Positions 20,478 through 51,038 of a DNA stretch of 64,000 nt are shown piece by piece; positions within the stretch are counted from its first letter, which is position 1; each line of letters begins with the position of its first letter. Where the stretch lies: contig DATMZR010000043.1 of the NCBI GenBank assembly GCA_035573435.1, positions 1 to 64,000 on the forward strand, written 5' to 3'. This stretch comes from Solirubrobacterales bacterium. Lineage in GTDB: Bacteria > Actinomycetota > Thermoleophilia > Solirubrobacterales > 70-9. The notes under the pieces were generated by a model. That model worked only from the letters and a program-made list of their open reading frames with translations. It searched no databases and was not told where the DNA came from. The position numbers were made by a program, and so were the translations under genes.

Positions 20478-20864
20478 ATGTCAGACGCTCGCCAGCGACT
20501 GGGCCGAACCGCCGAGGCGCTGGCGGCGGACTCACTCAGTCGCCGGGGCATGCGGATCGTCGCACGCAACGCCAGGACCTCCTCGGTCCGTGGTGAGCTC
20601 GATCTGATCGCGCTGGACGGGCCCACCCTCGTCTTCGTCGAGGTCAAGGCCCTGCGGGCCACTTCGGTGGCGGGCCCGGAGCGGCCTGCGATGGCGGTCG
20701 GTCGCCGCAAGCGCCACAAGCTGCGCTCGCTGGCACTCGCCTGGCTGCGAGACCACGACGGCTCGGTCCCACCGCACCGCGCGCTTCGCTTCGACGTGGT
20801 CGGGCTCCGCCTGGACTCCCGCGGCCACGCGGTCGAGTGGGAGCACCTGCGCGCCGCGTTCTAG
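20478..20864 (+). CDS. yraN: UPF0102/YraN family nuclease-fold protein
   Basis: Small protein (128 residues) with a restriction-endonuclease-like fold. The signature acids are in GELDLIALDGPTLVFVEVKA, where D and ExK are the likely metal site. It is probably involved in DNA processing; no activity is established for the family. In many genomes yraN lies between rnhB and comM in the same direction. Here it points the opposite way, creating a divergent junction with comM and a convergent one with rnhB. Its stop codon adjoins a copy of the dispersed repeat. Confidence 0.88.
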   Translation: MSDARQRLGRTAEALAADSLSRRGMRIVARNARTSSVRGELDLIALDGPTLVFVEVKALRATSVAGPERPAMAVGRRKRHKLRSLALAWLRDHDGSVPPHRALRFDVVGLRLDSRGHAVEWEHLRAAF

Positions 20865-21002
20865 TAGCGACGAAGTCGCGTAGCAGCGGGTGGACCTGCC
20901 GGGTAAGGCCAGTGCCCCAACCCGGCGCATCCGGCTTCGACGGATGACCGGTCGCCTGTGGCTCCCTGGTAGGCGAAGCCCAGGCTTCCGCCGGAGTTAT
21001 GA
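20861..21002 (+). repeat. dispersed convergent-junction repeat, copy A
   Basis: About 140 bp filling the space between the yraN and rnhB stop codons. It begins with the hairpin TAGCGACGAAGTCGCG, continues with GGACCTGCCGGGT, ACCCGGCG, a TCCGGCTTCGACGGA hairpin and GGCGAAGCCCAGGCTTCC, and ends at GGAGTTATG. It is roughly 85% identical by eye to copy D at 50891-51032. No protein is convincingly encoded. The successive hairpins suggest an RNA-level role such as bidirectional termination. Confidence 0.8.
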
Positions 21003-21004
21003 CC

Positions 21005-21595
21005 TCACGAGAGCTGGAGCTGGCTGTAGGCGATCGACTGGAAGGAGCGCCGGTGAAGCGCCGAGAGGCCGTGCTCGATGATCGCCGCTCGGTGTTCGGG
21101 GGTGGAGTAGCCGACGTTGCCGGCGAACCCGAACTCCGGATAGGACGAGGCGACGCTGCACATGTAGCGGTCCCTGGTCACCTTGGCAACCACGGAGGCG
21201 GCCGCGATCGCCGCGCTCCGGGCGTCGCCGTCGATCACGGCCCGGTGATCGACCGGGGTTGGCACCGAGAACCCATCGACCAGACAGGCGGCGCCGGGCA
21301 CTGTGACGCGCTCCAGGCTGCGAGCGAGTGCCGCCAGGTTGGTGACGTGAAGGCCGCGGGCGTCGATCCCGCGGGCGCAGCGAACCGTGACCGCGACCCG
21401 CGCCGCCGCGCGAACCACCACCGGATAGAGCTCCTCACGCTCCTCCGGGCTGCGCACCTTCGAGTCGTCCAGATCCGAGAGCGCGCGCCGGTCGCAGCGG
21501 CTCAGGGTGCGGTAGTCGATCAGCACCGCTGCGGCCACCAGCGGCCCCGCCAGCGAGCCGCGTCCCGCTTCGTCGGCGCCGGCCACGTAGCGCAC
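21005..21595 (-). CDS. rnhB: ribonuclease HII
   Basis: Removes RNA from RNA/DNA hybrids and single ribonucleotides from DNA. ADEAGRGSLAGPLVAAAV carries the first catalytic Asp/Glu pair, LDDSK follows, and the later VIDGDARSAAIAAASVVAK region supplies another conserved acid. The start is uncertain. A GTG at 21595 is used here, but family-like residues (LFRFDRALG) lie just upstream without a canonical start. The next option is an ATG at 21772, overlapping lepB by about 107 bp. It is the last gene of the rplS-lepB-rnhB run. Confidence 0.9.
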   Translation of the reverse strand: MRYVAGADEAGRGSLAGPLVAAAVLIDYRTLSRCDRRALSDLDDSKVRSPEEREELYPVVVRAAARVAVTVRCARGIDARGLHVTNLAALARSLERVTVPGAACLVDGFSVPTPVDHRAVIDGDARSAAIAAASVVAKVTRDRYMCSVASSYPEFGFAGNVGYSTPEHRAAIIEHGLSALHRRSFQSIAYSQLQLS

Positions 21596-21665
21596 CCCAA
21601 GCGCGCGGTCGAAACGGAACAGTCGTGCGGCCTGGCGCCGGCGGCGCGCGCGGCCCGCGCTGCCG

Positions 21666-22280
21666 TTAGAGGGTCCCGATCCGGTCCGGCGGCCAGTAGG
21701 TGAAGAAGGCTTCGCCGATGATCCAGTCGCGGGGGACGGGTCCCCAGAAGCGGCTGTCGTCGCTCGACCCACGGTTGTCGCCCATCATGAAGTAGTGATC
21801 GGGTGGAATGGTGATCTCTTCGGGCAAATTGCAGCCGCTTCCGCCCCGGCAGGGCCGGATGAAGTCCTCCTTGGCCGGCACGCCGTTGACGACCGGATGG
21901 CCATTCTCAATGCTGAGCGTGTCCCCGGGCTCGGCGACTATCCGCTTGATGAAGTTCGTGTCCGACTTGTCGCTCGTCGGCTCCGGACACGCCTCCCTGG
22001 GGTCCTGCTGAATGCCGCACTCCTGGCCATTCTCCGCTCCCGCCGGCGGATGGAAGACGATCACGTCGCCGATCTCGGGATCGCGCACGTGGTAGATCAC
22101 CCGGTTGACGAGCACTCGCTGGCCGACGTCGAGCGTCGGCTCCATCGACGGCGAGGGGATCTGATACGGCTTGACGACAAAGGCTTGGATCAAGAGCGCC
22201 AAGCCGATGGCCAGGGCGACGATCAACACCAGCTCGAGGAGCGCGCCACGCCCCGTCGTCGGCCTCGGGATCAGGTTCAC
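21666..22280 (-). CDS. lepB: signal peptidase I
   Basis: Cleaves signal peptides from exported proteins at the outer face of the membrane. The 204-residue protein has one N-terminal membrane helix (about 14-35), the catalytic Ser S45 in PSPSMEPT and the general-base Lys K112 in [20 protein letters not shown] is the conserved box E. GTG start in a GTGA overlap with rplS. A Cys-containing loop (residues 88-150) is longer than in minimal homologues and may be disulfide-bonded. Confidence 0.95.
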
Positions 22281-22903
22281 TTAGCGGATTCCTCGGAATC
22301 CTCGGCTGTCGCCTCGGATTGGGAATCCTCGGAATCCTCCCCTTCTGGCTCGGATTCCTCGGAGGATTCGGCCTCGGCCGGCGGCTCCGCTTCAGCGGTG
22401 GCTTCGGCTTGCTGTGCTGGTGGCTCCTCGGACTGGTCCTCGCCCTCGGTCTCTTCGCCCTCTTCGCCCTCGGCTTCAGGCTCCGCCTCGCTCTGCGCGA
22501 CGCCCTCCGAATCCAGTGCCTCGCCCTCCTCGGGGGTGACCACGAGCTCGTCCTCGATGCCCCAGCGCCGCTCGGCCACGCGGGCGCGCTTTCCGACCCG
22601 GCCACGGAGGTAGTAGAGCTTGGCGCGACGGACGTCCCCCCTTGCCACCACCTCCAGCCGCTCGATCTTCGGGGAGTGGACCGGAAAGGTCCGCTCGACG
22701 CCGACCCCGAACGACTGCTTGCGGACCGTGAACGTCTCCCTCGCGCCGGCGCCACGCCGAGCGATGACGACACCCTCGAACATCTGGGTCCGACGCCGGC
22801 TGCCCTCGACCACTTGGAAGTGAACCCGCACCCGGTCGCCAGGCGCGAACCGGGGTATCCGCCTCAGCTGACGCTGCTCGATGCTCTCGATGATCGTGCT
22901 CAT
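22277..22903 (-). CDS. rplS: ribosomal protein L19 with long acidic tail
   Basis: L19 sits at the 30S-50S interface. Residues 1-115 are a normal L19 ([33 protein letters not shown] and [11 protein letters not shown]). They are followed by about 93 extra residues almost entirely of Glu, Ser, Ala, Asp and Pro. Typical L19 is about 115-120 residues. The ATG at 22903 gives the standard N-terminus; an upstream start would add 26 non-conserved residues. TACTAT near 23027 could be a -10 element for a separate promoter. Coupled to lepB by GTGA. Confidence 0.93.
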
Positions 22904-23035
22904 GGGCTGCTGCGAGGGCGACGCCGGGGCTCTTTGCCGCCCGCCTGAGGCCGGAGACGACGCCTGGCCCTTGGCGCACAACGGGCCTCCGATCAGCGAA
23001 GGCCCGCGCGGCCGGAGAATAGTACCGGAGAGCCC

Positions 23036-23707
23036 CTAGCCGCCAGAACGGGCGGCGCGCCGGCGGCTTTGCCCCAGCCGCCATTCCCGGACGCGTGCAT
23101 GATCGCCCGAGAGCAGCACCTCCGGCACCTGCCAACCGCGATAGGTGGCAGGGCGCGTGTAGTGCGGGTACTCCGGCGCTCCCCCGAGCGCCTGTGAGAA
23201 CGACTCCTCGACTGCGCTGTCGGCGTGGCCCAGCGCGCCGGGAAGCTTGCGGATCAGCGCGTCGGCGACCACCATCGCGGCCAGTTCCCCGCCCGAGAGC
23301 ACGTACGGCCCGACCGAGACGGCGTCGGTGGCCAGGTGCTCCCTGACGCGCTCGTCGACCCCCTCATAGCGGCCACACAGAAGAGCCACCTCCCGTTCCC
23401 CTGCCAGCTCACCTGCGAGGGCATCGTCGAACTGGCGCCCAGAGGGGGCCAGCAGGACGATGCGCTTTCCCTGGCGGCCTTCCCCGTAGGCAGCGTTCAG
23501 CGCCGCGTCTACGGCGTCAACCCGGAGCACCATGCCCGCTCCGCCGCCGTAGGGGGAGTCGTCGACCTGACCGCCGCCGAGCGGCGTCGTCTCGCGGTAG
23601 TGGAAGAAGCGAATCTCCGCGCCGAGCTGGAGCGCGTTGGCGACGTGCCGCTGGCCGAGAAACCACTCGAACCACTCGGGGAAGAGGGTGAAGACGTCAA
23701 TCCTCAA
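23036..23707 (-). CDS. trmD: tRNA (guanine-N1)-methyltransferase
   Basis: Methylates G37 of tRNAs to prevent frameshifting. It has the SPOUT trefoil-knot fold, with VALLCGRYEGVDERV and YVLSGGELAAMV forming the SAM-binding knot. DSPYGGGAGMVLR and EYPHYTRP are also conserved. Length 223 is normal. TTG start overlapping the khpA stop by 11 nt. In most genomes rimM lies between khpA and trmD, but here the genes overlap and rimM is absent. Confidence 0.94.
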   Translation of the reverse strand: MRIDVFTLFPEWFEWFLGQRHVANALQLGAEIRFFHYRETTPLGGGQVDDSPYGGGAGMVLRVDAVDAALNAAYGEGRQGKRIVLLAPSGRQFDDALAGELAGEREVALLCGRYEGVDERVREHLATDAVSVGPYVLSGGELAAMVVADALIRKLPGALGHADSAVEESFSQALGGAPEYPHYTRPATYRGWQVPEVLLSGDHARVREWRLGQSRRRAARSGG

Positions 23708-23930
23708 TGAACTCGACCAGGACCCGTCGCTCGGCGCGGGTCGAGGCGGCCTTCGCCACCGTCCGGATGGCGTTGGCCACGCGGCCGCCCCTGCCTATCA
23801 GCCGGCCAAGGTCGTCGCCGCCCACGGTGACCTCGATGACGAGGTCTCCGTTTTCGTCCACCTCCTCGACCTGCACGGAGTCCGGGTCCTCGACCAGCGC
23901 CCGGGCGAGGAACTCGACCAGCTCACGCAT
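23697..23930 (-). CDS. khpA: KH-domain RNA-binding protein KhpA
   Basis: Single KH domain of 77 residues with the RNA-binding GxxG loop in GRLIGRGGRVANAIRTV. In other bacteria KhpA with KhpB binds many RNAs and affects cell division and elongation. The ATG at 23930 follows the rpsP stop by 4 nt, and the 3' end overlaps trmD. The conserved rpsP-khpA arrangement supports the call. Confidence 0.92.
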   Translation of the reverse strand: MRELVEFLARALVEDPDSVQVEEVDENGDLVIEVTVGGDDLGRLIGRGGRVANAIRTVAKAASTRAERRVLVEFIED

Positions 23931-23934
23931 GGCG

Positions 23935-24189
23935 CTATGAGCCCGTCGCCTCGATGCCCTTGGCGCGCAAGAGCCCCGCAACCGTTCGCGTCGGCTGGGC
24001 ACCGTGCGTGATCCAGTGCCGGGCGCGCTCCTCGTCGACCACGATCGTCGACGGGTCGGTCTGGGGGTTGTAGTGGCCGATCGTCTCGATCGTCCGGCCG
24101 TCGCGCGGCGAGCGGCGGTCGGCGACGACGATGCGCCAGATCGGGTTCCTCCTGGCCCCAACCCTTCTGAGTCTGATTCGTACGGCCAT
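23935..24189 (-). CDS. rpsP: ribosomal protein S16
   Basis: 30S assembly protein of 84 residues. It starts [20 protein letters not shown] and contains the family's [10 protein letters not shown] loop. First gene of the rpsP-khpA-trmD group. TAACCT lies 12 nt before the ATG as a possible -10 element. It follows ffh by 15 bp, so transcription may also come from there. Confidence 0.95.
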
Positions 24190-24204
24190 GCGCGGCGGAC
24201 CAGG

Positions 24205-25539
24205 TTACAGGCCCCGCATCAGCTGCTGTGGGTCGGGCATCTTGCCCTTGGCGAGCTGGGCCATCACCTTGCGCATCTGCGCGAACTGCTTGGTGAGCTG
24301 GTTCACGGCCTGAACGGTCGTCCCCGAGCCCCGCGCGATCCGTTTCCGCCGGGAGCCATCGATCAGATCCGGCCGCGCCCGCTCTGTGGGCGTCATCGAG
24401 AGGATGATCGCCTCGATCCGGTCGAGCTCGCGCTCGTCCATGTTCACCTGGCGGATCTGCTTCATGGCCTTGCCCATGCCGGGCATCAGCCCGAGCACAT
24501 TCGATAGCGGCCCCATGCGCCGCACCTGGCGCAGCTGGTCCAGGAAGTCCTCGAGCGTGAATTGCTGCTGGCGAATCTTGCGCTCCAGGTCCTCCGCATG
24601 GGTGCCGTCAGAGACCTCCTCGGCCTTCTCGATCAGCGACAGCACGTCTCCCATGCCGAGGATCCGGCTCGCCATTCGCTCCGGATGGAAACGCTCCAGC
24701 TCGTCGAGCTTCTCGCCCACCGAGGCGTAGAGGATCGGCTTGCCCGTCACGGCCTTCACCGATAACGCCGCTCCTCCCCGAGCGTCCCCGTCGAGCTTCG
24801 TCAGCAGCACGCCGTCGAACTCGACCCGCTCGGCGAATGCCTCGGCGACGTTGACCGCGTCCTGCCCGGTCATCGCGTCGAGGACCAGCAGGACGTCGTG
24901 GGGCTTGGTGCGCTTGCGGATGGCCGCCAGCTCCTCCATCAGATCGTCGTCGATGTGCAGGCGTCCCGCCGTGTCGACGATCAGCACGTCATAACCGGCG
25001 GTGCGCGCCTCGCCCAGCGCCCAATCGGCGATCTCCACCGGCTCCCGCTCCGTGCCCTGCTCATAGACCTTGGCGCCCGCTCGCTCGCCGACGGTGAGCA
25101 GCTGCTCGACTGCCGCAGGGCGTTGGGTGTCGCAGGCGACCAGGGCCGCCCGCTTTCCGTCCTTCGCGAGGTGCTTGGCGAGCTTCGCGCAGGCGGTGGT
25201 CTTGCCCGAGCCCTGAAGTCCCGCCATCAGGATCACGGTCGGGCCGGAGCTCGCGAGGGCGAGATCGCGGCTGGCGCCCCCCATCAGCGCCGCGAGCTCC
25301 TCGTTCACGATCTTCACCACCTGCTGGCCGGGGTTGAGGCTGTCCAACACGCCGGCGCCCAGGCAGCGCTCCTTGACCTGGGAAGTGAACTGCTTGACGA
25401 CCTTGAAGTTGACGTCGGCCTCGAGCAGCGCGAGGCGGATCTCGCGCATGGCCCGGTCGACGTCCGACTCTGTCAGCTTGCCTCGCGAGCGTACGCCGGA
25501 CAGGGTCTCCTGGAGCCGGTCGGACAGCTGATCGAACAT
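24205..25539 (-). CDS. ffh: signal recognition particle protein Ffh
   Basis: SRP54 GTPase that binds signal peptides and 4.5S RNA for co-translational targeting. N domain, G domain with P-loop GLQGSGKTT (107-115), and a Met-rich M domain (GLMPGMGKAMKQIRQ, RKRIARGSGTTVQ). Length 444 is normal. TAAGCT at 25546-25551 lies 6 nt before the ATG, suggesting a leaderless transcript. Its receptor ftsY lies upstream. Confidence 0.96.
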   Translation of the reverse strand: MFDQLSDRLQETLSGVRSRGKLTESDVDRAMREIRLALLEADVNFKVVKQFTSQVKERCLGAGVLDSLNPGQQVVKIVNEELAALMGGASRDLALASSGPTVILMAGLQGSGKTTACAKLAKHLAKDGKRAALVACDTQRPAAVEQLLTVGERAGAKVYEQGTEREPVEIADWALGEARTAGYDVLIVDTAGRLHIDDDLMEELAAIRKRTKPHDVLLVLDAMTGQDAVNVAEAFAERVEFDGVLLTKLDGDARGGAALSVKAVTGKPILYASVGEKLDELERFHPERMASRILGMGDVLSLIEKAEEVSDGTHAEDLERKIRQQQFTLEDFLDQLRQVRRMGPLSNVLGLMPGMGKAMKQIRQVNMDERELDRIEAIILSMTPTERARPDLIDGSRRKRIARGSGTTVQAVNQLTKQFAQMRKVMAQLAKGKMPDPQQLMRGL

Positions 25540-25571
25540 GAAGTCAGCTTACGGGGCCGGCCCGTCCGCCA

Positions 25572-26483
25572 TCACTCGTCGAGCAGGGCGGCGGCGAACT
25601 CGCGGGCGTCGAAGGGCCGCAGGTCCTCCAGTCCCTCGCCGATCCCAATCAGCTTCACCGGCAGCCCCAGCTCGGAGGCGATCGCCAGGGCGATGCCGCC
25701 CTTGGCAGTGCCGTCGAGCTTGGTCAACACGACGCCGGTCAGATCGACTGCCTCGGCGAACGCCTGAGCCTGTCGCAGGCCGTTCTGGCCGGTGGTGGCG
25801 TCGATCACGATCAAGCATTCGTGAGGGGCACCCTCGAGCCGCTTCCCGGCCACACGGCGTACCTTGGCCAGCTCGGCCATCAGGTTCGCGTGCGTGTGTA
25901 GACGGCCGGCTGTGTCGGCGATGACCACGTCGGTGCCCCGCGACTGGGCCGCAGCGATGGCATCGAAGAGGACGGCGCCGGGATCGCCACCTTCCGACCC
26001 ACGGATGATCTCGGCGCCGGCGCGCCCGGCCCAGGCTTCGAGCTGCTCGATCGCGGCGGCGCGGTACGTGTCGGCGGCAGCGACGATGACCGACAGGCCG
26101 CGCTCGTTTCGCAGCTGCCACGCGAGCTTGCCGATGGTGGTCGTCTTGCCGGTGCCGTTGACGCCCACCACCATCACGACCGCGGGGCGGCTCGTCAGAT
26201 CGATCCCGGAGTCCCCGGTGCCGGCCGCCTCGGCGAGCAACTCGATCAGCCGCGCGCGCACCGCGTGGGCATCCTCGGCGCCGCCTGCATCGACCTCAGC
26301 CTCCAGCTGCCCCACAACCTCAGCGGTGGTCCGGGCACCAACGTCGGCGAGGATCAGGGCCTCCTCGATCCGCTCCCAGGTCTCCTCGTCGAGCCGCTCG
26401 AAAAGGCTCGAGCTGAGCTCCGCCTGCAGGGCCTTGCGGCTCTTGGAAAGGCTCTCTCGGAGACGGCGCCAGGAGGTGGCCAT
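25572..26483 (-). CDS. ftsY: signal recognition particle receptor FtsY
   Basis: Membrane-associated SRP GTPase that partners Ffh. The protein is 303 residues: an NG domain with P-loop GVNGTGKTT (107-115), DTYRAAAIEQLE and TKLDGTAKGG. The acidic A domain found in E. coli is absent, as in many actinobacteria, so membrane contact probably relies on the N-terminal helix (MATSWRRLRESLSKSRKAL). It lies between the SMC-like gene and ffh. Confidence 0.95.
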   Translation of the reverse strand: MATSWRRLRESLSKSRKALQAELSSSLFERLDEETWERIEEALILADVGARTTAEVVGQLEAEVDAGGAEDAHAVRARLIELLAEAAGTGDSGIDLTSRPAVVMVVGVNGTGKTTTIGKLAWQLRNERGLSVIVAAADTYRAAAIEQLEAWAGRAGAEIIRGSEGGDPGAVLFDAIAAAQSRGTDVVIADTAGRLHTHANLMAELAKVRRVAGKRLEGAPHECLIVIDATTGQNGLRQAQAFAEAVDLTGVVLTKLDGTAKGGIALAIASELGLPVKLIGIGEGLEDLRPFDAREFAAALLDE

Positions 26484-26503
26484 GGCGCGCCACCTTAATC
26501 GCG

Positions 26504-28954
26504 TCAGGCGGCCTCGGCGGCCTCGTCTGCGGAGCCTTCCTCCTCCTCCGAGTGCGAAAGGCGGCGCGAGATCACCTTGGTGGCGCCGCCGCTTCCCATG
26601 CTGACCCCGTAGAGCACGTCGGCGGCGTCCATGGTCCGCTTCTGATGGGTGACGATCACGAATTGGGCCCGGCCCGAGAAGCGCCGCACGAGCTGCAGGA
26701 AGCGGTCGATGTTCGCGTCGTCGAGCGCCGCCTCTACCTCGTCGAGGATGTAGAAGGGCGACGGACGGGCGAGAAAGACGGCGAACACGAACGCGAGCGC
26801 GACCAGCGCCTTCTCACCGCCGGAGAGCAGCGATAGGCGGCGGGTGGCCTTGCCGGCGGGGGTGACCTCGATCTCTACACCACTTCCGGCGGAATCCTCC
26901 GCTGCCGCGTCCGGTTCGGCCGGGTTTTTGGCGGGATGTCCACCTTCCGCTCCGGGCTCGCCACCCTCAGCGTTGCCACCCTCGGCATCGCCACCCTCAG
27001 CGTTGTCGTCGTCCGCCTCTCCGCCGAGGACCAGGCGGGGGCCGTGCTCGCCGACCAGACGCAGGCGGCCGCGACCCCCCGGGAAGAGATGCGCGATCAG
27101 CTCCTCGAAGTTTCGCTCGGTCGCCTCGAACGTCTCCTCGAAGGCGACCCGGATCTTGCGGTCCGTGTCGCGGATCAGGCCCTGGAGCTCCGCCAGGGCG
27201 GCCTCGAGGTCCTGCCGTTGCTCCTCGAGCTCTTCGACGTGAGCGAGGGCATCGGCGTACTCCTGCTCGGCGAGCGGGTTCACCGGGCCAAGCGCTTCGC
27301 GGCGGCGCGCGAGCCGCTCGAGCTTTTGCTCGAGGAGATCGCGTTCCTCGGCGCTGAGCGCCTCGCCGGCGGGCTCGATCTCGCGACCCAGGCGGGAGGC
27401 GATCCGCTCCAACTCCGTCACCGCTTCGTCGCGCCGATCGCGAAGGTGCGTCGCCCGGACCTCGGCGCCGGTCACCGAGTCGCCCATCGCGTGCAGTCTT
27501 GCCTGAAGCCCCGCCTCCTCCTCCGAGCAGGCCCGCAGCTGCGCGGTCACGTCGTCGGTGTCGTGCTGGTCGAGCATTCGGCTCTCCAGCCGAGCGGCGC
27601 GCTCGCCCACCGCCGCGCGGGCCTCCGCCGTCGCCGCCAGCATCTCGTCCAGCTCCTTCATGATCCCTGCCGCCGCCCGGACGCGGCTCTCCAGCGAGTC
27701 CTGGCGACGCCGGCCCAGCAGCTCCTCCAGCCGCCGGGCGCCGAGCGCGGCGCGCTCCGATGCCTCACGAATCCGCGCGACCTCGGTCGCTCGCGCGTTC
27801 CCGCTGTCTGCCTCTCGAGCGCGGTCCAGGGCCTCGCCGGCCGCCGCGAGCGCGGAGGCGATCCGATGCAGTCCGGAGCCCACGGGATCCTCGCCCTCAT
27901 CGGCAGCGCCCGCGGGCGCCTCCTCGGCCAGCGCGCCCAGAGCCGCCCGCATGCGCTCCAGATCCTCACCGAGCTCGCTGCGCCGCACCGACAGTGCCTC
28001 AGCGCGGACGCTGAGGCGCTCGTGGGCAGCTCGCAGGGCCGTCAACCGGCCCCATACTTCGGTCCGCTCGCGATCGCGCCGGGCAAGGCGCTCCTCGATC
28101 TCGGTTCGGCGCCGGTTCACCTTCGACTGTTCGTCCTCGATGCGCCGCCGGGTCTCACGGGCCTCGGCGGCTTCGCGCTCGGCGTCGCCGAGCTCGCTCG
28201 AGTGCGCTCGGAGCTCCTCCGCGACCAGCCTGCCGCGCAACTCAGCAGACTCGCGTTCCAAGCGGGCGTGGATGTCCGCCGCCTGGGCCTGGCGTTTGAG
28301 AGGCCGCAGCCGGCTGCGAGCCTCGCGCTCGACGTCGAGCGCCCGGTCGAGGTTCTCCTGCGTGCGCTCGAGCTTGAGCTGTGCCCGCCGGCGGCGCTTG
28401 CGGTGCTTCCCGAGCCCGGCCGCCTCCTCGACCAGAAGGCGCCGGTCGCGCGGCTTCGAATGGACTATCTCCTCCACCCGCCCCTGACTGATCACCGAGT
28501 GCATCTCGCGGCCGAGGTTCGCATCGGCAAGCACCTCGATCACATCGACGAGCCGGCAGCGGGCCCCGTTCAGCCGGTACTCGCCCTCCCCGCTTCGCTC
28601 CATCCGCCGCCTGATCGAGATCTCCGAGAAGTCGCTGCCAGCCGCAGACCCGGCCGCCTCCGGAGTCGCAGAGGAGGAGGCGGTCGGCTTTGATGAGTTC
28701 TCCAGCACCACCTCGACCTCGGCGTAGCGCCGCGGCGACTGCTGTTCGCCGCCCGCGAAGATCATGTCCTGCATCGTCTGGCCGCGGACCGCGAGCGGGC
28801 TCTGCTCTCCGAGCGCCCAGAGCACGGCGTCGGTGATGTTCGACTTGCCGCAGCCGTTCGGTCCGACGATCACACTGACACCCGGCGAGAACTCAAGCCT
28901 GGTGCGTTCCGCAAAGGACTTGAAGCCCTTGATCGTGATCGAGCTCAGATGCAT
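26504..28954 (-). CDS. smc: SMC-like chromosome segregation ATPase without a recognisable hinge
   Basis: The head halves are classical SMC. The N-terminal half has Walker A GPNGCGKSN (31-39). The C-terminal half has the signature LSGGE (710-714) and Walker B YILDEVEAALDD (735-746). The protein is only 816 residues, against about 1150-1200 for bacterial SMC. Between the heads there are about 450 coiled-coil residues, with a short Gly/Ala-rich break near 345-360 and no 120-residue hinge domain. A Gly/Glu/Asp/Asn-rich insert (about 640-690) lies in the C-terminal head, partly encoded by 15-bp tandem repeats. Gene order (rnc-smc-ftsY) is that of true smc. Confidence 0.88.
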   Translation of the reverse strand: MHLSSITIKGFKSFAERTRLEFSPGVSVIVGPNGCGKSNITDAVLWALGEQSPLAVRGQTMQDMIFAGGEQQSPRRYAEVEVVLENSSKPTASSSATPEAAGSAAGSDFSEISIRRRMERSGEGEYRLNGARCRLVDVIEVLADANLGREMHSVISQGRVEEIVHSKPRDRRLLVEEAAGLGKHRKRRRRAQLKLERTQENLDRALDVEREARSRLRPLKRQAQAADIHARLERESAELRGRLVAEELRAHSSELGDAEREAAEARETRRRIEDEQSKVNRRRTEIEERLARRDRERTEVWGRLTALRAAHERLSVRAEALSVRRSELGEDLERMRAALGALAEEAPAGAADEGEDPVGSGLHRIASALAAAGEALDRAREADSGNARATEVARIREASERAALGARRLEELLGRRRQDSLESRVRAAAGIMKELDEMLAATAEARAAVGERAARLESRMLDQHDTDDVTAQLRACSEEEAGLQARLHAMGDSVTGAEVRATHLRDRRDEAVTELERIASRLGREIEPAGEALSAEERDLLEQKLERLARRREALGPVNPLAEQEYADALAHVEELEEQRQDLEAALAELQGLIRDTDRKIRVAFEETFEATERNFEELIAHLFPGGRGRLRLVGEHGPRLVLGGEADDDNAEGGDAEGGNAEGGEPGAEGGHPAKNPAEPDAAAEDSAGSGVEIEVTPAGKATRRLSLLSGGEKALVALAFVFAVFLARPSPFYILDEVEAALDDANIDRFLQLVRRFSGRAQFVIVTHQKRTMDAADVLYGVSMGSGGATKVISRRLSHSEEEEGSADEAAEAA
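26960..27004. repeat. three 15-bp tandem repeats inside the SMC-like gene
   Basis: Units GCCACCCTCAGCGTT, GCCACCCTCGGCATC and GCCACCCTCAGCGTT are head to tail. On the coding strand they specify NAEGG, DAEGG and NAEGG. Because 15 is divisible by three, copy-number change keeps the frame. Confidence 0.85.
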
Positions 28955-29031
28955 GGAATCGGCTGCGGAGCCCTGGGTAGGCTCGCTGTCGGATCGGACG
29001 GTTTTCTGTTTCGTCGCTGCGGGCCGCCTTC

Positions 29032-29757
29032 CTACTGCCCCTGGCGCTCCAGCGCTTCGGCGGCGGCGGCCTGCTCGGCGGCCTTCTTGCTGCGGCCCTC
29101 TCCCCTTCCGAGCACCTCATCCCCGCGGAGCGCGACCACCTCGAAGCGACGATCGTGAGGAGGGCCCGCCTCTTGGACGACCTCGTAGGTTACGCGGGTG
29201 CCTTCCCTGGCGAGCCGTTCCTGAAGCGCGGACTTGAAGTCGAGCAGGGTCTCCGACGCCAGCTCGATCTGTGGGGTGAAGGCCCCGACCGTGGCCTCGG
29301 CGGTTACCTCGAAGCCATGGTGCAGGTAGCAGGCGCCGATCACCGCCTCGCAGACCGAGGCCAGCGCCCGCTCCGACGCCACGAGCGCCTCTGAGTCGAT
29401 CCCGCCCTCGCGTTCCGGCGGCGCCGCCTCGCGCAGCCGCGCGGGCAGGCCGAGCGTCCTGGCCACCTCGCTGCAGGCTCGCCCGGAGACCGCCTGCCCG
29501 TGAACCTTGGTCAACCTGCCGATGTCCGCGCGCCCGAAGCGCTGGTACAGGTGCTCGGCCACAGCCAGTCCCAGCACGGCGTCCCCGATGAACGCCAGCC
29601 GGCCGTAGGAGTCCGTCCGGTGGTCAACCCACGAGGAGTGTGTGACCGCCCTGCGCCGCAGGTCGTCGGGGAGCGCGTCGATCAGCTCCGCCAGGCGTTC
29701 TGAGCCGACTTCGCGTCGCGGGCCCGTCCGGCGAAGCCTGCGAATCCCCAGGGGCAC
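29032..29757 (-). CDS. rnc: ribonuclease III homologue with a degenerate active site
   Basis: RNase III layout of 241 residues: endonuclease domain (about 20-150) and a C-terminal double-stranded RNA-binding domain (DFKSALQERLAREG and GEGRSKKAAEQAAA). The signature ERLEFLGDAVL reads GRLAFIGDAVL, so the Glu residues equivalent to E. coli E38 and E41 are G52 and A55. The DxxE site reads SVCE, so D114 is S134. Only D59 (D45) and E137 (E117) remain. It may bind but not cut dsRNA. GTG start at 29757, just after the acpP stop. Gene order acpP-rnc-smc is typical. Confidence 0.85.
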   Translation of the reverse strand: MPLGIRRLRRTGPRREVGSERLAELIDALPDDLRRRAVTHSSWVDHRTDSYGRLAFIGDAVLGLAVAEHLYQRFGRADIGRLTKVHGQAVSGRACSEVARTLGLPARLREAAPPEREGGIDSEALVASERALASVCEAVIGACYLHHGFEVTAEATVGAFTPQIELASETLLDFKSALQERLAREGTRVTYEVVQEAGPPHDRRFEVVALRGDEVLGRGEGRSKKAAEQAAAAEALERQGQ

Positions 29758-29768
29758 GAGCGCCTTCG

Positions 29769-30035
29769 CTAGTCGTCGGCGCCGAGCCGCTGGGTGACGA
29801 AGTCCACGGCCTGGCCGACGGTCTCGATCTTGGCCGCCTCCTCCTCGGAGACGCTCACCCCATAGGTGTCCTCGAGCTCCATCACCAACTCGTAGAGGTC
29901 GAGCGAGTCGGCGTCGAGGTCCTCGCGAAAGCGCGTGGTCTCGTCGATCCGCTCCAGCGGGACCTCCAGCTCGATCGACAGGTGCTCGCGGACCTTGGCC
30001 ACGACACCATCCCGGTTCAGCCCGTCGTCGCTCAT
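29769..30035 (-). CDS. acpP: acyl carrier protein
   Basis: Carries acyl chains on a phosphopantetheine arm during fatty acid synthesis. The 88-residue protein has the modification motif DADSLDLYEL with Ser S44 as attachment site, and acidic helices II and III typical of AcpP. The ATG lies in an ATGA overlap with plsX, so the two are coupled. Placement between plsX and rnc is conserved in bacteria. Confidence 0.93.
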   Translation of the reverse strand: MSDDGLNRDGVVAKVREHLSIELEVPLERIDETTRFREDLDADSLDLYELVMELEDTYGVSVSEEEAAKIETVGQAVDFVTQRLGADD

Positions 30036-31048
30036 GCCTCTTTCCTATCACGCCGGGTCATCCCCGCCTGGTCCAGGAGGCCGGCGGTTCGCTCGACAGC
30101 GCCCTGGTTGGACGTGCGTGCCGCGAGCCGCACCGCATTCGCGATGCCGTCGGGCCCGGAGCTCCCGTGGCCGACCACCGCAACGCCCCGGAGGCCGAGC
30201 AGGACCGCGCCGCCCGTCGTGTCCGGATCGAGCCGGCGGCGCAGGCCGGCGAGCGAGGGACGAAGCAGAAAACCGCCCGCCGCGGCCACGGGGCCGGAGC
30301 GCGCCGCAGCGCGCACCGCATCCGCAACGGCCTTCGCCGTTCCCTCGATCGTCTTCAGGACGACGTTGCCGGTGAACCCGTCGGTGACGATCACGTCGGC
30401 CACCCCGGCGAGCAGCTCCCGGCCCTCGAGGTTGCCCCTGAAGTCGAGGCTTGTGGCGCTGGCCAGCCTCGCGTTTGCCTCGACCACCTCGGGCGATCCC
30501 TTGTTGGCCTCCTCGCCCACGGAGAGCAGCGCCACGCGAGGCCCCGCAACCCCGAGCACGGCCTCACTGAAGGCAGCCCCCAGATAGGCGAACTGCACCA
30601 GGTCATGCGCCCTGGCGTCGGCGTTCGCCCCCACGTCGAGCACCAGCGTGGGCGGCCCAGGCCGGCCCGGGACGAGGAGCTGCACAGCGAGCGCGGGGCG
30701 GCGGACGCCGTGGAGACGCCGCAGTGCGAACAGGGCGGCTGTCATCGCCGCCCCGGTGGAGCCGGCGCTCGCCATTGCCTGGGAGCGTCCCTCGGCCACA
30801 TCTCGAGCGGCAAGGACGACCGACGCCCCCGGCCTGGACCGAACCGCGGCCACGGGCTCCTCGTCGTTGGTTATCTCCTCGAGGGCGGGCACCAGCTCCG
30901 CGCCGGCGATCTGCTCGACCGGGGCCAGTGCAGAGGGATCGCCGAACACTCGCAGCCGGATCCCATCCGCCGCGGCGGCTCGCACGCCGGCAACGATTGC
31001 CTCGGGCCCTCGCTCGGCGCCGCGACCGTCGAGGGCGACCGTCGGCAC
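30032..31048 (-). CDS. plsX: phosphate acyltransferase PlsX
   Basis: Converts acyl-ACP to acyl-phosphate for phospholipid synthesis. The 338-residue length matches the family. Conserved segments include MASAGSTGAAMTAALF, LLSVGEEANKG and VIVTDGFTGNVVLKTIEG. GTG start 4 bp after the rpmF stop; the 3' end overlaps acpP by ATGA. Peripheral membrane enzyme. Confidence 0.94.
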   Translation of the reverse strand: MPTVALDGRGAERGPEAIVAGVRAAAADGIRLRVFGDPSALAPVEQIAGAELVPALEEITNDEEPVAAVRSRPGASVVLAARDVAEGRSQAMASAGSTGAAMTAALFALRRLHGVRRPALAVQLLVPGRPGPPTLVLDVGANADARAHDLVQFAYLGAAFSEAVLGVAGPRVALLSVGEEANKGSPEVVEANARLASATSLDFRGNLEGRELLAGVADVIVTDGFTGNVVLKTIEGTAKAVADAVRAAARSGPVAAAGGFLLRPSLAGLRRRLDPDTTGGAVLLGLRGVAVVGHGSSGPDGIANAVRLAARTSNQGAVERTAGLLDQAGMTRRDRKEA

Positions 31049-31052
31049 CGAG

Positions 31053-31271
31053 TTACTCCTCGGCCTCCGTGGTCTGAGTGGGGGCCGCCTCGGCGATCTC
31101 GTGTTCGATCACCTCGCGTCCAGCGTACGTCCCGCATACCGGGCAGACTCGATGCGGCAGGCGGGGGCTATGGCAGCGAGGGCACTCGTTCAGCCGCGGC
31201 GCGCTGACCGAGTGGGTCGCGCGGCGCTTGTCCCGGCGCGTACGGGAGGTCCGTTTCTTCGGGACGGCCAT
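31053..31271 (-). CDS. rpmF: ribosomal protein L32, zinc form
   Basis: 72-residue 50S protein. MAVPKKRTSRTRRDKRRATH is the standard N-terminus, and CPRC plus CPVC form the zinc ribbon. An acidic C-terminal tail of about 15 residues is present. TACCAT at 31283-31288 lies 11 nt before the ATG in a CGCTACCATCCCCGC segment also found upstream of rpmB. Leads the rpmF-plsX-acpP-rnc run. Confidence 0.95.
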   Translation of the reverse strand: MAVPKKRTSRTRRDKRRATHSVSAPRLNECPRCHSPRLPHRVCPVCGTYAGREVIEHEIAEAAPTQTTEAEE

Positions 31272-31380
31272 GCGAAGCGGGGATGGTAGCGGCCGCCCGG
31301 CTCGTCGTAGGCTAGCCTCCCCTACGCCCCTCAAAGGGCGCAGAAGGCACAGCCCAGCCGACCAACCGGAAGGAGCAGCG
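31272..31380. promoter_or_regulatory. divergent promoter region of rpmF and R2lox
   Basis: The segment holds TACCAT (31283-31288) for rpmF. It also holds the palindrome AGGCTAGCCT at about 31311-31320, which offers TAGGCT on one strand and TAGCCT on the other as overlapping -10-like hexamers. A GAAGGAG Shine-Dalgarno sequence lies about 6 nt before the R2lox ATG. Confidence 0.4.
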
Positions 31381-32298
31381 ATGGCCTCGACCCTCCTCGA
31401 CCTCACGCAGCAAGGAGACGTTGCCACGATCTCGGACGAGTCGAAGCTCGACAAGATCAAGCTGCTCACCCCCCAGCAGCTCTACGAGCTCTGGGAGCGC
31501 CAGCAGTGGCTCTCGCAGCAGATCGACTTCGCCCAGGACAAGGACGACTGGGCCGGGCTCACCGACGAGGAGCGGGAGTGGTTCGTCTGGGGAATGTCGG
31601 CGTTCTTCCTCGGGGAGGAGCGGGTGACGACCCAGTTCTCTGGGCTCGTGATGGCCTACGAGGACGAGCAGGAGGAGGCTTTTCTGACCACCCAGCAGGT
31701 CGACGAGGCGCGGCACATGCAGTTCTTCGACCGCTTCTACCGCGAGGTCGTGGGCATGGCCGATGTCGGCATCAGGGAACGTCTGGCGACGGTGCGTGAG
31801 AACGTCAACGACGACTTCGTGCAGCTGTTCGACGGGGCTTTGGTCGACGCGGAGAGGCGATTGATCGCGGACCCGGCCAACGTCGAGGCAAAGGTCGACT
31901 TCATCACCGCCTACCACATGGTGATCGAGGGCACGCTGGCGCTCACCGGCCAGTGGACGATCACCGACTACTGGGAGAAGACCGGCAAGATGCAGGGCTT
32001 TCTGGAGGGCTTCAAGAACGTCGCCCGCGACGAGCATCGCCACGTGGCCTATGGCACCTGGTACCTGAAGCGGGCCTGCGCGGGGAACGAGGCGCTCGCA
32101 AACCGCGTGCGCGCCACGCTCTCCGAGCTCCTTCCGATCGCTAGCGGGGTGCTGGTGCCGCCCGGGCAGGACCCGAACGACTGGGAGCTCCTTGGCTACA
32201 CCTCAGAGCAGGTGAATCAGTTCGCCTACACCGCCCTGGCCCGGCGCCTCAAGGTGATCGGGGTGTCGCTGGTCGCGCCGGAACCCGCGCCCGCCTAG
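31381..32298 (+). CDS. R2-like ligand-binding oxidase (R2lox)
   Basis: Ferritin-like di-metal protein of 305 residues related to ribonucleotide reductase R2. Metal ligands align as E79, E109, H112, E183, E218 and H221. The first ligand is Glu rather than the Asp of class Ia R2. V82 and Y178 sit at the offsets (+3 from the first Glu, -5 from the fourth ligand) of the Val-Tyr ether crosslink known in R2lox. It therefore probably binds Mn/Fe and a long-chain lipid; its physiological substrate is unknown. A strong AAGGAG precedes the ATG. The gene stands opposite to its neighbours between rpmF and yceD, which are usually adjacent. Confidence 0.85.
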   Translation: MASTLLDLTQQGDVATISDESKLDKIKLLTPQQLYELWERQQWLSQQIDFAQDKDDWAGLTDEEREWFVWGMSAFFLGEERVTTQFSGLVMAYEDEQEEAFLTTQQVDEARHMQFFDRFYREVVGMADVGIRERLATVRENVNDDFVQLFDGALVDAERRLIADPANVEAKVDFITAYHMVIEGTLALTGQWTITDYWEKTGKMQGFLEGFKNVARDEHRHVAYGTWYLKRACAGNEALANRVRATLSELLPIASGVLVPPGQDPNDWELLGYTSEQVNQFAYTALARRLKVIGVSLVAPEPAPA

Positions 32299-32335
32299 GT
32301 ATCAATCGGCGACTCCTCGCTCGACACCATCCCCA

Positions 32336-32445
32336 TAACTCCGCTGGGATGCTCCGCTGCGCGTCCGCTCCCGGCGGGCTAGGGCGCCAGCCTGACCCGG
32401 CAGGCCCAACCGCATCTAGCGACTTCGTCGCTAGCCCGAACCGAG
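32336..32445 (-). repeat. dispersed convergent-junction repeat, copy B
   Basis: Minus-strand copy between the R2lox and yceD stop codons. It begins GGGCTAGCGACGAAGTCGC and continues CCTGCCGGGTCAGGCTGGCG and CCCTAGCCCG. The middle differs from copies A and D, but the end GCGGAGTTATG matches copy A. The TAG within GGGCTAGCG is the stop codon of yceD. Confidence 0.75.
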
Positions 32446-32952
32446 CTGGCGGAGTTTTTCCCAGCGGGGGTCGGGGGCCGGATCGTGGCGATGCTCGTCC
32501 GGATCGGCGTCGTTGAGCGAAGCGCCGCACACCGGGCACAGACCCTTGCAGTCGGGCCGGCACACGGGCTGAAGCGGTAGCGCCAGGGCCAGCGCGTCGT
32601 GCGCCCATGAGGCGAGGTCGAGCTGATCGTCCTCGATGTAGGGGCTGCGCAGCTCCTCGTCCTGGGTCCCCTGTTGCCCGACCTCGCGGGCATCGACGTC
32701 CACGGTCACGTCGGCGTCCTCCAGACAGCGCATGCACGGTCCCGAGACGTGGGCGGTGAACCGCATCCGGACCGCGTAGCCGGCGGCCGTCCGCGACAGG
32801 TCGAGGCGGGCGTCCACGGAGTCGCCCGCCGCGGCGTAAGCCTGGCCGCCTAGCTCGAGCCGCCCAGGGTCGGTCACCAGGTCAAGCCGACGTCCTTCGC
32901 CGGACCGCAGCGCGAAACGAGCCAGGTCGATGCTGTGATATGCCGCTGCCAT
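32431..32952 (-). CDS. yceD: YceD/DUF177 family protein
   Basis: A 173-residue protein of the family linked to rRNA or ribosome assembly by its gene neighbours. C73 and C76 (CMRC) plus the C-terminal CRPDCKGLCPVCG suggest two zinc sites, and LDLASWAHDALALALP is the conserved helix. TAAGCT about 10 nt before the ATG may be its -10 element. Its stop codon lies inside repeat copy B. It normally abuts rpmF; here R2lox separates them. Confidence 0.88.
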   Translation of the reverse strand: MAAAYHSIDLARFALRSGEGRRLDLVTDPGRLELGGQAYAAAGDSVDARLDLSRTAAGYAVRMRFTAHVSGPCMRCLEDADVTVDVDAREVGQQGTQDEELRSPYIEDDQLDLASWAHDALALALPLQPVCRPDCKGLCPVCGASLNDADPDEHRHDPAPDPRWEKLRQLGSG

Positions 32953-32970
32953 CCCCGAATCGAGCTTAGC

Positions 32971-33528
32971 GTGAGCGCCCAATTCCACCTGGATCCCGAG
33001 ACCTACCTCGACGAGATCCGAGCCGAGGTGCCGCGCTACGACGAGCTCCAGGAGCGGACCATCGAGGCGATCCCCTTCCCGCCCCGCAGGGTGCTCGAGC
33101 TCGGGGTGGGCACTGGGGAAACCGCCCGCCGGCTCAAGGCGCGATTTCCCGATGCGGAGCTGACCGGGTTGGACTCCCAGCCGGAGATGGTTTTCAAGGC
33201 GCGCGAGCTGGGGATCGAGGTGCGCCTGGCTCGGATGGAGGACCCGCTGCCCGACGGACCGTGGGACCTGGTGCTCTCCGTGCTCTCTGTCCACCACCTC
33301 ACCGACGAGCAGAAGCGGGACCTGTTTCGCCGGGTGCGCGAGCAGTCCAGGGCGATCGTCATCGGAGACGTGGTCATTGCCGAGCCACAGGTGACGCCTC
33401 TGGAGGAGGGCGTCGACCTGCCCTCGCGCGCCGAGGACCTGGCCGAGTGGTGCAGCGGCGAGATCGTCTGGAAGGGCGACGACCTGGCCGTGGTCCGCGC
33501 CGTCTACCAGCAAAAGAGCCCGCACTGA
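32971..33528 (+). CDS. class I SAM-dependent methyltransferase
   Basis: Rossmann-fold methyltransferase of 185 residues. VLELGVGTGETARRL is motif I, LTGLDSQPEM the acidic strand-2 end, and WDLVLSVLSVHHL motif IV. It has the small Methyltransf_25/12 type architecture; the substrate is unknown. GTG start 18 bp from the divergent yceD start. A bidirectional-looking terminator overlaps its stop codon. Confidence 0.82.
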   Translation: MSAQFHLDPETYLDEIRAEVPRYDELQERTIEAIPFPPRRVLELGVGTGETARRLKARFPDAELTGLDSQPEMVFKARELGIEVRLARMEDPLPDGPWDLVLSVLSVHHLTDEQKRDLFRRVREQSRAIVIGDVVIAEPQVTPLEEGVDLPSRAEDLAEWCSGEIVWKGDDLAVVRAVYQQKSPH

Positions 33529-33540
33529 AGCGGGCCCTTT
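33513..33540. terminator. intrinsic terminator after the methyltransferase
   Basis: AAAG and CTTT flank GCCCGC and GCGGGC arms with a 6-nt loop, so the hairpin has a T-run on both strands. It overlaps the last codons and stop of the methyltransferase and isolates it from the next gene. Confidence 0.7.
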
Positions 33541-33636
33541 AGAAGCCGCCTCGACCATGGCGGCACTCGCCTGTTGGGTACAGCGTAGCGCCCGCTACAT
33601 ACGATCCGCCCGCCCGCTACCGAGGAGGAGACGCTC

Positions 33637-34443
33637 ATGTCGAAGCTGCTCTACACCAAGCGCGACCGGATCGCCTACCTGACCATCAACCGGCCGGAGG
33701 CCCGAAACGCGATCGACCCCGACGTCCACCGGCTGATGGTCGAGGCGTGGGCCGACTTCCGGGACGACGACTCGGTGGACGTCGCGATTCTCACCGGAGA
33801 GGGCGATGCCTTCTGCGCGGGCGCGGACCTGAAGACGTACATCCCGCCGATCATCAGCGGAGCGAGCCCCGGCAGGCTTCGCGAGATCGTTGAGCTGGGG
33901 CTGAACGGCTTCACCCGCGGCATGCATCGGATTCCAAAGCCGATCATCGGGGCGATCAACGGCTGGGCGCTGGCCGGAGGCCTGGAGACCGCGATGGCCT
34001 GCGACATCCGAATCGCCTCCGACCGGGCGATGTTCGGATCCTTCGAGGCGCGGCGTGGCTTTCACCATGGCGACGGCGGCCTGGTGAGATTGGTTAACAC
34101 CTGCGGTGTCGGCGTCGCCATGCAGATGCTGCTCACCGCCGAGCCGATCGATGCCCGGCGGGCCCTCGAGTGCAACATGGTGGCCAACGTGGTCCCGCAT
34201 GAGGACCTGATGGACGAGGCCGAGCTGACCGCAAGGCAGATCCTGCGCAACTCGCAGGCGGCGGTTCGCTCCGCGAAGCAGACGATCCTCGACGTCATCG
34301 GCCAGCCACTCGACTTCCAGCTCCGCACCGAAGCCTGGAACGCCTACACCTGCGCCGACCCCGAGGAAACGAAGGCCCTCTTGGAGCGCTTCTACGAGAA
34401 GACCGACGCGGGGCGCGCCGGAACGCACGGGACCGAGCTGTGA
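33637..34443 (+). CDS. enoyl-CoA hydratase/isomerase family protein
   Basis: Crotonase-fold protein of 268 residues acting on a CoA thioester. AFCAGADLKTYIP and NGWALAGGLETAMACDIRIA form the oxyanion hole. In the region where hydratases carry the second catalytic Glu, the sequence is RRGFHHGDGGLVRL, so standard hydration is not certain. TACGAT about 34 nt upstream and a GAGGAGGAG Shine-Dalgarno give it a normal leader. A GTGA overlap couples it to the SDR gene. Confidence 0.85.
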   Translation: MSKLLYTKRDRIAYLTINRPEARNAIDPDVHRLMVEAWADFRDDDSVDVAILTGEGDAFCAGADLKTYIPPIISGASPGRLREIVELGLNGFTRGMHRIPKPIIGAINGWALAGGLETAMACDIRIASDRAMFGSFEARRGFHHGDGGLVRLVNTCGVGVAMQMLLTAEPIDARRALECNMVANVVPHEDLMDEAELTARQILRNSQAAVRSAKQTILDVIGQPLDFQLRTEAWNAYTCADPEETKALLERFYEKTDAGRAGTHGTEL

Positions 34444-35126
34444 GACGCGCCGTGGTGACGGGCGCAGCCCGCGGAATCGGGGCGGCAATCACCGCGTTGT
34501 TGCGCTCCGGCGCGATCGAGGTGGTCACCATGGATCGTGAGGAGGGCTGCGACCACACGCTCGATTTGGCCGTCGACCCCATACCCGAGCTCGGCCAGGT
34601 CGACATGTGCGTATCCAACGCCGCGATCACCGACACCGTGGCGCCCGCCCACCGGATGACGCCGGAGCAGTGGGCGCGGGACATCGAGGTCAACCTGACC
34701 GGCGCCTTTCGGGTCGTCCAGGCCTGCCTGCCGGGAATGCGCGAACGGAACTGGGGAAGGATCGTGGTGATCTCGAGCGGCGCTGCCCGCTCGGGGCTCC
34801 CCGGTCAGGTGGCGTACTCCGCCTCGAAGGCCGGGCTGATCGGGATGATGAAGACGGTCGCCGCCGAGAACGTGCGCCGGGGAATCACCGCGAACGCGGT
34901 CCTTCCGGGCATGGTCGGAACCGAGAAGGTGAGGGCGATGCCCGCCGAGATCCTCCAGCGCCTGATCGAGACCCTGCCCGCACAGCGCCTGGCCGAACCG
35001 GCAGAGGTCGCCGCCCTGGTGGCCTTCCTCGTCTCGGAGGAAGCCGGCTACATAACCGGCGAGGCGATCGCAATCGACGGCGGCGCATCGCTCAACACCC
35101 TCTCGCTGACCCGGGAGCAGCGCTAG
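34440..35126 (+). CDS. short-chain dehydrogenase/reductase
   Basis: Classical SDR of 228 residues, FabG-like. VVTGAARGIGAAIT binds the nicotinamide cofactor, SNAAITD is the NNAG-type strand, and S113, Y126 and K130 form the catalytic set. DGGASLNT at the C-terminus is typical. Coupled to the enoyl-CoA hydratase, it likely handles the resulting hydroxyacyl intermediate; the pathway is unknown. GTG start. Its stop shares CTAG with the convergent gene. Confidence 0.88.
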   Translation: MRRAVVTGAARGIGAAITALLRSGAIEVVTMDREEGCDHTLDLAVDPIPELGQVDMCVSNAAITDTVAPAHRMTPEQWARDIEVNLTGAFRVVQACLPGMRERNWGRIVVISSGAARSGLPGQVAYSASKAGLIGMMKTVAAENVRRGITANAVLPGMVGTEKVRAMPAEILQRLIETLPAQRLAEPAEVAALVAFLVSEEAGYITGEAIAIDGGASLNTLSLTREQR

Positions 35127-35830
35127 GCCCGAGCGGGGCCGGAAACGCCGTAGCGCTTGAAGTGGCGGGCCGGGATATCCGCAGGGTCCTTGTACCAGTA
35201 CCAGGTGCAGGGATCGCGGTCGAAGTCATCCGGGGGGTCGGACGGGTAGACGGGGTAGCCGATCCACCGGATCGGCAGGGCCTCGTTCATGAACGCGCAG
35301 TGCGTGCAATAGAGCGGGAACCCGGCTCGCCCATAGCTCCAATCGTGGGCGCCGTCGGTCACCCCCCAGCCCTCAGGTCCGTAGCGGCGGTTTCTCCATA
35401 GGCGCTGGCCGGAGCCGCAGGGATTCATCGTGAACGTGAGCTTCTCGTCGTCCTCTGCGATCTCGAAAGCCCCCGGCTTGGGACCCACCCCGCTGGTCGA
35501 GTGCGCGCGCCAGGTTGCCGCGAGCGCCGCGGCGACCTGCCGCCGGTCCGTCTTTGCGATCGTCTCGACGGGGCGGCGCCAGCTCCGCTCGAGGCTCCAC
35601 TGCCATGCCTCCTCGACCCCGTCGTCCCCGAGCTTCTCCTTGATGAACGAGATCAGCCCGGCCACGCCGTCGACGAGCAGGTCGTGCATGAACTGGGACT
35701 CGTGCCTCATCTCCTCGCAGAGCCGTTTCGCCTCCTCGGCCTCGCCCCGTTCGAGCGCCTCGATCGCCCTCACCATCGTCGGTCGCGCCATCTCACGCAG
35801 CTCCTCGTCCGAGAACCACCTCTCGCCCAT
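35123..35830 (-). CDS. conserved hypothetical protein with Cys-rich aromatic C-terminus
   Basis: Unrecognised 235-residue protein. The N-terminal half is helical and charged (MVRAIEALERGEAEEAKRL). The C-terminal half contains MNPCGSGQR, PLYCTHCAFMN and RDPCTWYWYKDP, possible metal or cofactor ligands. A resemblance to the L-2-amino-thiazoline-4-carboxylate hydrolase-like family is possible but unproven. The ATG at 35830 has a GGAGGTG Shine-Dalgarno; a longer upstream frame is not protein-like. Confidence 0.65.
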   Translation of the reverse strand: MGERWFSDEELREMARPTMVRAIEALERGEAEEAKRLCEEMRHESQFMHDLLVDGVAGLISFIKEKLGDDGVEEAWQWSLERSWRRPVETIAKTDRRQVAAALAATWRAHSTSGVGPKPGAFEIAEDDEKLTFTMNPCGSGQRLWRNRRYGPEGWGVTDGAHDWSYGRAGFPLYCTHCAFMNEALPIRWIGYPVYPSDPPDDFDRDPCTWYWYKDPADIPARHFKRYGVSGPARA

Positions 35831-35867
35831 CTCACACCTCCGTTCGCGGGCGCCGAGCGTATCGGTG

Positions 35868-36932: not shown

Positions 36933-36986
36933 GAGAATCGTGAAAGCTTACGCGGAGCGGCGGATTTGCGGGCGCACAGTCGATAT

Positions 36987-36998
36987 TTCGGCGCCGAA
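36987..36998. promoter_or_regulatory. perfect 12-bp palindrome upstream of sepIVA
   Basis: TTCGGCGCCGAA lies in the 100-bp gap between coaD and sepIVA, the only spaced junction in this run. It could be an operator; no regulator gene is near. Confidence 0.3.
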
Positions 36999-37032
36999 TT
37001 GCAAGCTCGCGCCCGCGCGTGGATCACGGCAT

Positions 37033-42274: not shown

Positions 42275-42275
42275 A

Positions 42276-42382
42276 TCAATCCGCCGGAAGCCTCGGCTTC
42301 GCCTTCGTGTCCGGCGGGCTTGGGCCCCGGCCTTACCCGGCAGGCCCCTTCGCCCCGACCGCGACTTCGTCGCTAGCTCGGA
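42276..42382 (-). repeat. dispersed convergent-junction repeat, copy C
   Basis: Minus-strand copy, slightly shortened. It reads CGAGCTAGCGACGAAGTCGC, CCTGCCGGGTAAGGCCGG, GCCCAAGCCCGCCGGA, and GGCGAAGCCGAGGCTTCC and ends GGCGGATTGATT next to the ridA stop. It overlaps the 3' end of the GST gene and supplies its last codons and stop. Confidence 0.8.
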
Positions 42383-50888: not shown

Positions 50889-50890
50889 AC

Positions 50891-51032: not shown

Positions 51033-51038
51033 ACCGCT

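Follow-up and report, generated by a model that had tools for sequence, protein, structure and literature searches.

A family of short, probably mobile palindromic repeats at gene junctions and within genes of a Solirubrobacterales bacterium

Within 64 kb of DNA from a Solirubrobacterales bacterium (the whole stretch analyzed, called the window here), four copies of a structured repeat, A to D, each lie between two genes that face each other. The question raised by this arrangement is whether such a repeat serves a purpose at convergent junctions, as a bidirectional terminator, a 3'-end stabilizer, or a small RNA, or is a mobile element that has settled there.

The four copies and their common hairpins had been recognized by the initial annotation at nearly the positions given here, and they do constitute one family of 113 to 150 bp, far above chance: at a tolerance of up to 3 mismatches, the window contains 6 matches to the 17-mer GCTAGCGACGAAGTCGC where 0.5 would be expected, a number that none of 100 shuffles attained. 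Our own gene calls likewise put all four (4/4) between facing genes. Copy A (20853-21002, plus strand) is a full element with a nested 36-bp module (20935-20970, plus strand) and is flanked by the genes for UPF0102 (+) and RNase HII (-); its hairpin 1 (20867-20879, plus strand) reads GCGAC-GAA-GTCGC. Copy B (32333-32445, minus strand) is a core element without the module, has a hairpin 3 (32341-32377, minus strand) with the inner loop GCA, and separates a ribonucleotide-reductase-small-chain-like gene from YceD, which takes its TAG stop from the flank of the copy's hairpin. Copy C (42273-42387, minus strand; hairpin 3 at 42281-42317, minus strand), also a core element, lies between a YjgF/RidA-type gene and a GST gene that passes through hairpin 1 and ends, inside the copy, at the TAA of CCGGGTAA. 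Copy D (50889-51038, minus strand), between an open reading frame without a Pfam match and the ribulose-phosphate epimerase gene, is a full element with the nested module at 50920-50955 (minus strand) and a hairpin 1 loop GCA. The likeness of A and D, previously put at about 85% over about 140 bp, comes to 89% identity over 138 bp; B and D are 84% identical over 74 bp, and B and C are 76% identical over 105 bp. All four listed copies are real, but two further copies that consist of hairpin 1 only had been missed. One is at 43893-43909 (plus strand), reads GCTAGGGACGAAGTCCC with a compensated stem, and corresponds to a longer element at the orthologous place in G001, a relative of the same genus. 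The other, copy E (60401-60447, with the hairpin-1 match at 60421-60437, minus strand), is in frame in der, where it encodes an 11-residue stretch between both GTPase domains; G001 has a full element there.

Read from the GCTAGCGACGAAGTCGC end, the core of the element comprises hairpin 1, with the general form GCGAC-GNA-GTCGC; a linker (CCTGCCGGGTCAGG...GCCC) that contains CCTGCCGGGT; and a longer, bulged hairpin 3 with the arms CCGSCGNNN / NNNCGSCGG and an inner SGC-GAA-GCS (GGC-GAA-GCC or CGC-GAA-GCG). The core measures 113 to 117 bp, and the element about 150 bp when it holds the nested module. The 36 bp by which A and D exceed the core show up as a gap in the alignment and are a separately repeated module inside the element. 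Since this module (CCGGATGACCGGTCGCCTNCGGCTCCCTGG core) occurs both nested in several copies and on its own elsewhere, at 46289-46321 in the window, at other places in the same genome, and in the relatives G001, G002, and G003, it is apparently an independent, second repeat family.

The hairpins are under constraint. In 49 copies from four genomes, the 19 pairs of hairpins 1 and 3 show standard pairing in 94.4% of cells versus 80.9% when shuffled, changes on both sides in 13 of 19 pairs versus 6.7, and 113 double-change cells versus 36, and pairing falls to 30 to 49% when the partner is slid by 1 to 3 columns; kinship among the sequences can inflate the contrast with shuffles, and a structure derived from a single copy favors the unslid version. 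Because the double changes are spread across so many pairs and arm types, the constraint on the fold is secure, and compensatory change keeps the hairpins. A GNA loop was found in 73 of the 76 hairpin 1s identified by a stem search (GAA in 61, GCA in 8, GTA in 2, and GGA in 2). Single copies fold with no lower energy than dinucleotide shuffles, and RNAalifold leaves out hairpin 3, owing to competition between its 5' arm and a middle hairpin.

The family extends well beyond the window. In the 2.58-Mb genome from which the window comes (the source genome), a covariance model built from A to D gave 49 matches at E <= 1, and the 17-mer with up to 2 mismatches gave 51 matches versus 3 for a reversed control; the copy number is put at about 45 to 58. 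Sorting covariance-model matches by type of spacer, a check that the initial annotation had proposed, bore out the initial impression of a preference for convergent junctions in the source genome but not in G001. These statistics draw on 592 kb of the source genome (528 kb around matches plus the window) and 371 kb of G001, with a background local to the matches and genes called, uncurated, by our own Markov-model script. In the source genome, copies occupy 16/80 convergent, 18/412 tandem, and 4/86 divergent junctions, and 5/44 copies are intragenic. Convergent junctions are thus enriched (16/80 versus 22/498 other junctions, odds ratio 5.4, p = 8e-6), and they remain so with the window left out (12/72 versus 22/439, odds ratio 3.8, p = 0.001). 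In G001, with a similar copy number, copies occupy 5/43 convergent, 28/268 tandem, and 3/42 divergent junctions, 10/47 copies are intragenic, and there is no convergent enrichment (5/43 versus 31/310, p = 0.79). Convergent gaps that bear a copy span 58 to 237 bp and are essentially the element itself, whereas those free of copies are mostly shorter than 50 bp. As a separate observation, the sampled 592 kb contain 15 convergent gene pairs whose overlap is exactly 4 bp, as a shared CTAG would give.

It could be argued that the element was selected between convergent genes as a bidirectional terminator or 3'-end stabilizer and that mobility merely seeded the repeat. The fourfold to fivefold enrichment in the source genome is genuine, and a local function could also contribute to it; the conserved hairpins lie close to gene 3' ends; and for REPs elsewhere a role as RNA elements at 3' ends has been put forward (PMC3733652). 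Yet G001 carries as many copies without the enrichment, 64 of the 80 convergent junctions sampled in the source genome have no element, and conservation is no higher in copies at convergent junctions than in copies at tandem junctions (median bit scores, 73.8 versus 75.8; p = 1.0). The copies inspected for this feature have no T-run 3' of their hairpins, which makes a classic intrinsic terminator unlikely, and a scan of 20500-40000 returned no terminator-like match at A or B. The initial annotation had also placed the hairpin end of the repeat against one stop codon, an arrangement that does not generalize: with both genomes summed, it is the hairpin 3 end that tends to face stops (56, versus 20 starts), while the hairpin 1 end faces 34 stops and 42 starts. 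A role dedicated to convergent junctions fits poorly with the location of most copies elsewhere (18 tandem, 4 divergent, and 5 intragenic) and with the relatives described below, in which the same junctions are empty of the element and work without it. Finding a repeat between facing genes in a single genome says little in favor of a terminator, and we consider selection for termination or 3'-end stabilization improbable.

The relatives point instead to movement. Site A is empty in G001 (an 18-bp gap, read by hand) and in G007; site B is empty in G002 (a 12-bp gap, read by hand); site C is empty in G002 and G003 and occupied in G001 (L122, L157); and site D is empty in G001, where both genes share CTAG. 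Each of the window sites A to D is therefore empty in at least one relative, with genes that abut or overlap there, as judged by manual reading of the junctions, automatic alignment being unreliable. Conversely, at least 9 copies of G001 are missing from the orthologous places in the source genome, and at three orthologous junctions (L119/L160, L092/L173, and L110/L154) the copies have opposite orientations, which is best explained by independent insertion, with inversion in place as the alternative. Taken together, the empty sites, the copies absent from the source genome, and the opposite orientations indicate a mobile, non-autonomous element, and the mobile origin that had been left open earlier thereby gains support. 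Several sites hold a full element in G001 versus hairpin 1 or hairpin 3 alone in the source genome, which shows that elements also lose parts or grow module by module. No terminal inverted repeat of the kind found in MITEs was seen in the aligned copies, and target-site duplications and exact boundaries could not be fixed from the divergent flanks, because the compared genomes are just ~75 to 85% identical. In G001, C65:28431-28815 holds 3 or 4 element copies in tandem; the matching window junction (52932-52949) is empty. Our reading of A to D as a family of short, non-autonomous, mobile palindromic elements has, in our estimate, a probability of about 0.87.

The relation of the element to coding sequence was followed at gene ends and within genes. 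In the source genome, 35 gene 3' ends fall inside 39 intergenic copies, versus 21 for 37 in G001. In the copies that were read, the sense frames meet stops at varying depths (TAG in GCTAG, TAG in GGTAG, and TAA in GGGTAA), so that an insertion shortly before a stop codon is easily tolerated. Intragenic copies are nearly all in the sense orientation and in one frame, yielding peptides that resemble a common 35-residue sequence; the exception is the L115 copy, which is antisense in an ABC-transporter gene. The in-frame copies sit in linkers, loops, and termini, and the added peptide is flexible. Der, described above for the source genome and G001, has a similar short AGDEVA stretch in G002, and the element stretch is absent from Der in G003, G006, G007, G025, and G027. 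In the source genome, element-derived peptides lie in two linkers of the lipoyl part of KGD, a fused E2/E1 2-oxoglutarate dehydrogenase (L107:8297-12676), and ribosomal protein S17 (L094:7316-8002, minus strand) carries an N-terminal extension of ~150 residues that has an acidic start and is partly derived from the element. Further in-frame copies occur in HisF, NuoG, and Lhr (twice), in a UvrD/PD-(D/E)XK protein of both species, and at the C-terminal end of a laccase-like protein. Since the frames are open and the domains intact, the peptides are probably produced and tolerated in these proteins. Among intergenic copies, 23 of 29 in G001 keep the peptide frame open, versus 9 of 32 in the source genome, and a more stop-rich master copy in the latter would fit its excess of copies at gene ends. 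A shared function of the copies as a small RNA or regulatory RNA element is very improbable: their hairpins covary, but an Rfam scan gave no family at the gathering threshold, no sigma-70-like promoter match was found in 20500-40000 (which covers A and B only), copies lie in a fixed frame inside coding sequence, and neither site nor orientation is conserved across sister species.

The mobile family has spread unevenly among related bacteria. A model built from 49 copies of the source genome, G001, G006, and G007 has matches at E <= 0.01 in 27 of 50 genomes of the same family, with 58 copies in the source genome, 67 in G001, 53 in G017, 31 in G019, 30 in G015, 25 in G004, and 24 in G007; copy number in this family thus ranges from 0 to 67. 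In the sister family, used as a control, 5 of 41 genomes have one weak match each. The exact hairpin-1 core is present in 5 of 232 genomes of the order, and the only match in an exact-pattern scan of genome contigs was the G001 record. We found no description of such repeats in this bacterial group in the literature.

Our search for a mobilizing enzyme found none. The only match to the Y1 transposase domain (Y1_Tnp, PF01797) in the source genome (G000) is on a lone 5.2-kb contig (C9; L194, L195), and a local search of the 1.9 kb around it showed no element. None was found in G001 to G007, some of which are incomplete genomes, despite the 67, 25, and 24 element copies of G001, G004, and G007. 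An origin by way of a RAYT transposase was rejected, the sole Y1_Tnp match of the source genome being unlinked to elements and absent in G001. Contig C9 also holds a tandem-repeat-like stretch and may be foreign to the assembly.

By behavior, the closest kin of the element would appear to be the Rickettsia palindromic elements (RPEs) and REPs. RPEs measure 105 to 146 bp and occupy both intergenic sites and, in frame, the interior of conserved genes (Ogata et al. 2000; PMC2229807). The A-D element resembles them in length, in its long stem-loops (here two covarying hairpins), and in having both intergenic copies and in-frame copies in conserved protein genes, and neither has an identified mobilizing enzyme. 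It differs in lineage and sequence, and RPEs are described with 12-bp terminal inverted repeats, whereas the A-D element has hairpins at both ends and no such repeats were seen. Our claim that it works like an RPE is accordingly one of likeness in behavior, with homology outside it. Rickettsia and Wolbachia are the best-known carriers of selfish palindromes that are read in frame. REPs are 20 to 40 bp long with a tag at one end, and the GTAG types are associated with RAYT transposases (Di Nocera et al. 2013, PMC3733652); GTAG/CGTC REPs lie mainly between convergent or unidirectional genes, near 3' ends, often with a TAG stop, and inside UvrD/RecBCD genes (PMC3733652). The A-D element is likewise palindromic, present in many copies, and placed at gene ends, its termini often supply stops, and some copies are in UvrD/RecB-type genes. 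It is far longer, at 113 to 150 bp, although the single hairpins within it are REP-sized. By inspection, an unpaired GTAG/CGTC end tag is not conserved in the aligned copies: CTAG precedes hairpin 1 and GGTAG often follows it, CGTC is within the stem, and GTAG stands before the inner stem in one hairpin-3 subtype only, the other having GGAC. A Y1 transposase is lacking in seven of the eight genomes searched and unlinked in the eighth, but published REP species may also lack RAYT. With no conserved REP tag and no linked tyrosine transposase, we have not filed the element as a REP. The BOX elements of pneumococcus and the MIRUs of mycobacteria are small, interspersed, modular repeats at gene junctions, and MIRUs overlap the stop codons of their neighbors; the A-D element would resemble both in these features.

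How would such an element move? We suggest that the fold matters for mobilization, probably as a hairpin in single-stranded DNA that would be acted on by an enzyme supplied in trans. Hairpins of the d(GCGAAGC) type, with GNA loops, are unusually stable as DNA, and for this reason we favor a role as single-stranded DNA over one as RNA. The crowding at convergent junctions would then mark the places where insertion does least harm rather than a dedicated terminator role. A more specific version, in which a coding-compatible hairpin moves via single-stranded DNA with an enzyme other than a Y1-HUH one and shifts between stop-rich forms (as in the source genome) and open-frame forms that seed peptides into essential proteins (as in G001), is speculative and, on balance, rather unlikely to hold in full.

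The A-D element is a new family of a known kind. It brings such elements, at up to 67 copies per genome, to another, high-GC lineage, with insertions in Der, ribosomal protein S17, KGD, and HisF. In sister genomes the same site may be full, partial, or empty, so that how the element inserts, how it is tolerated, and how selection acts on its fold can be tested directly.
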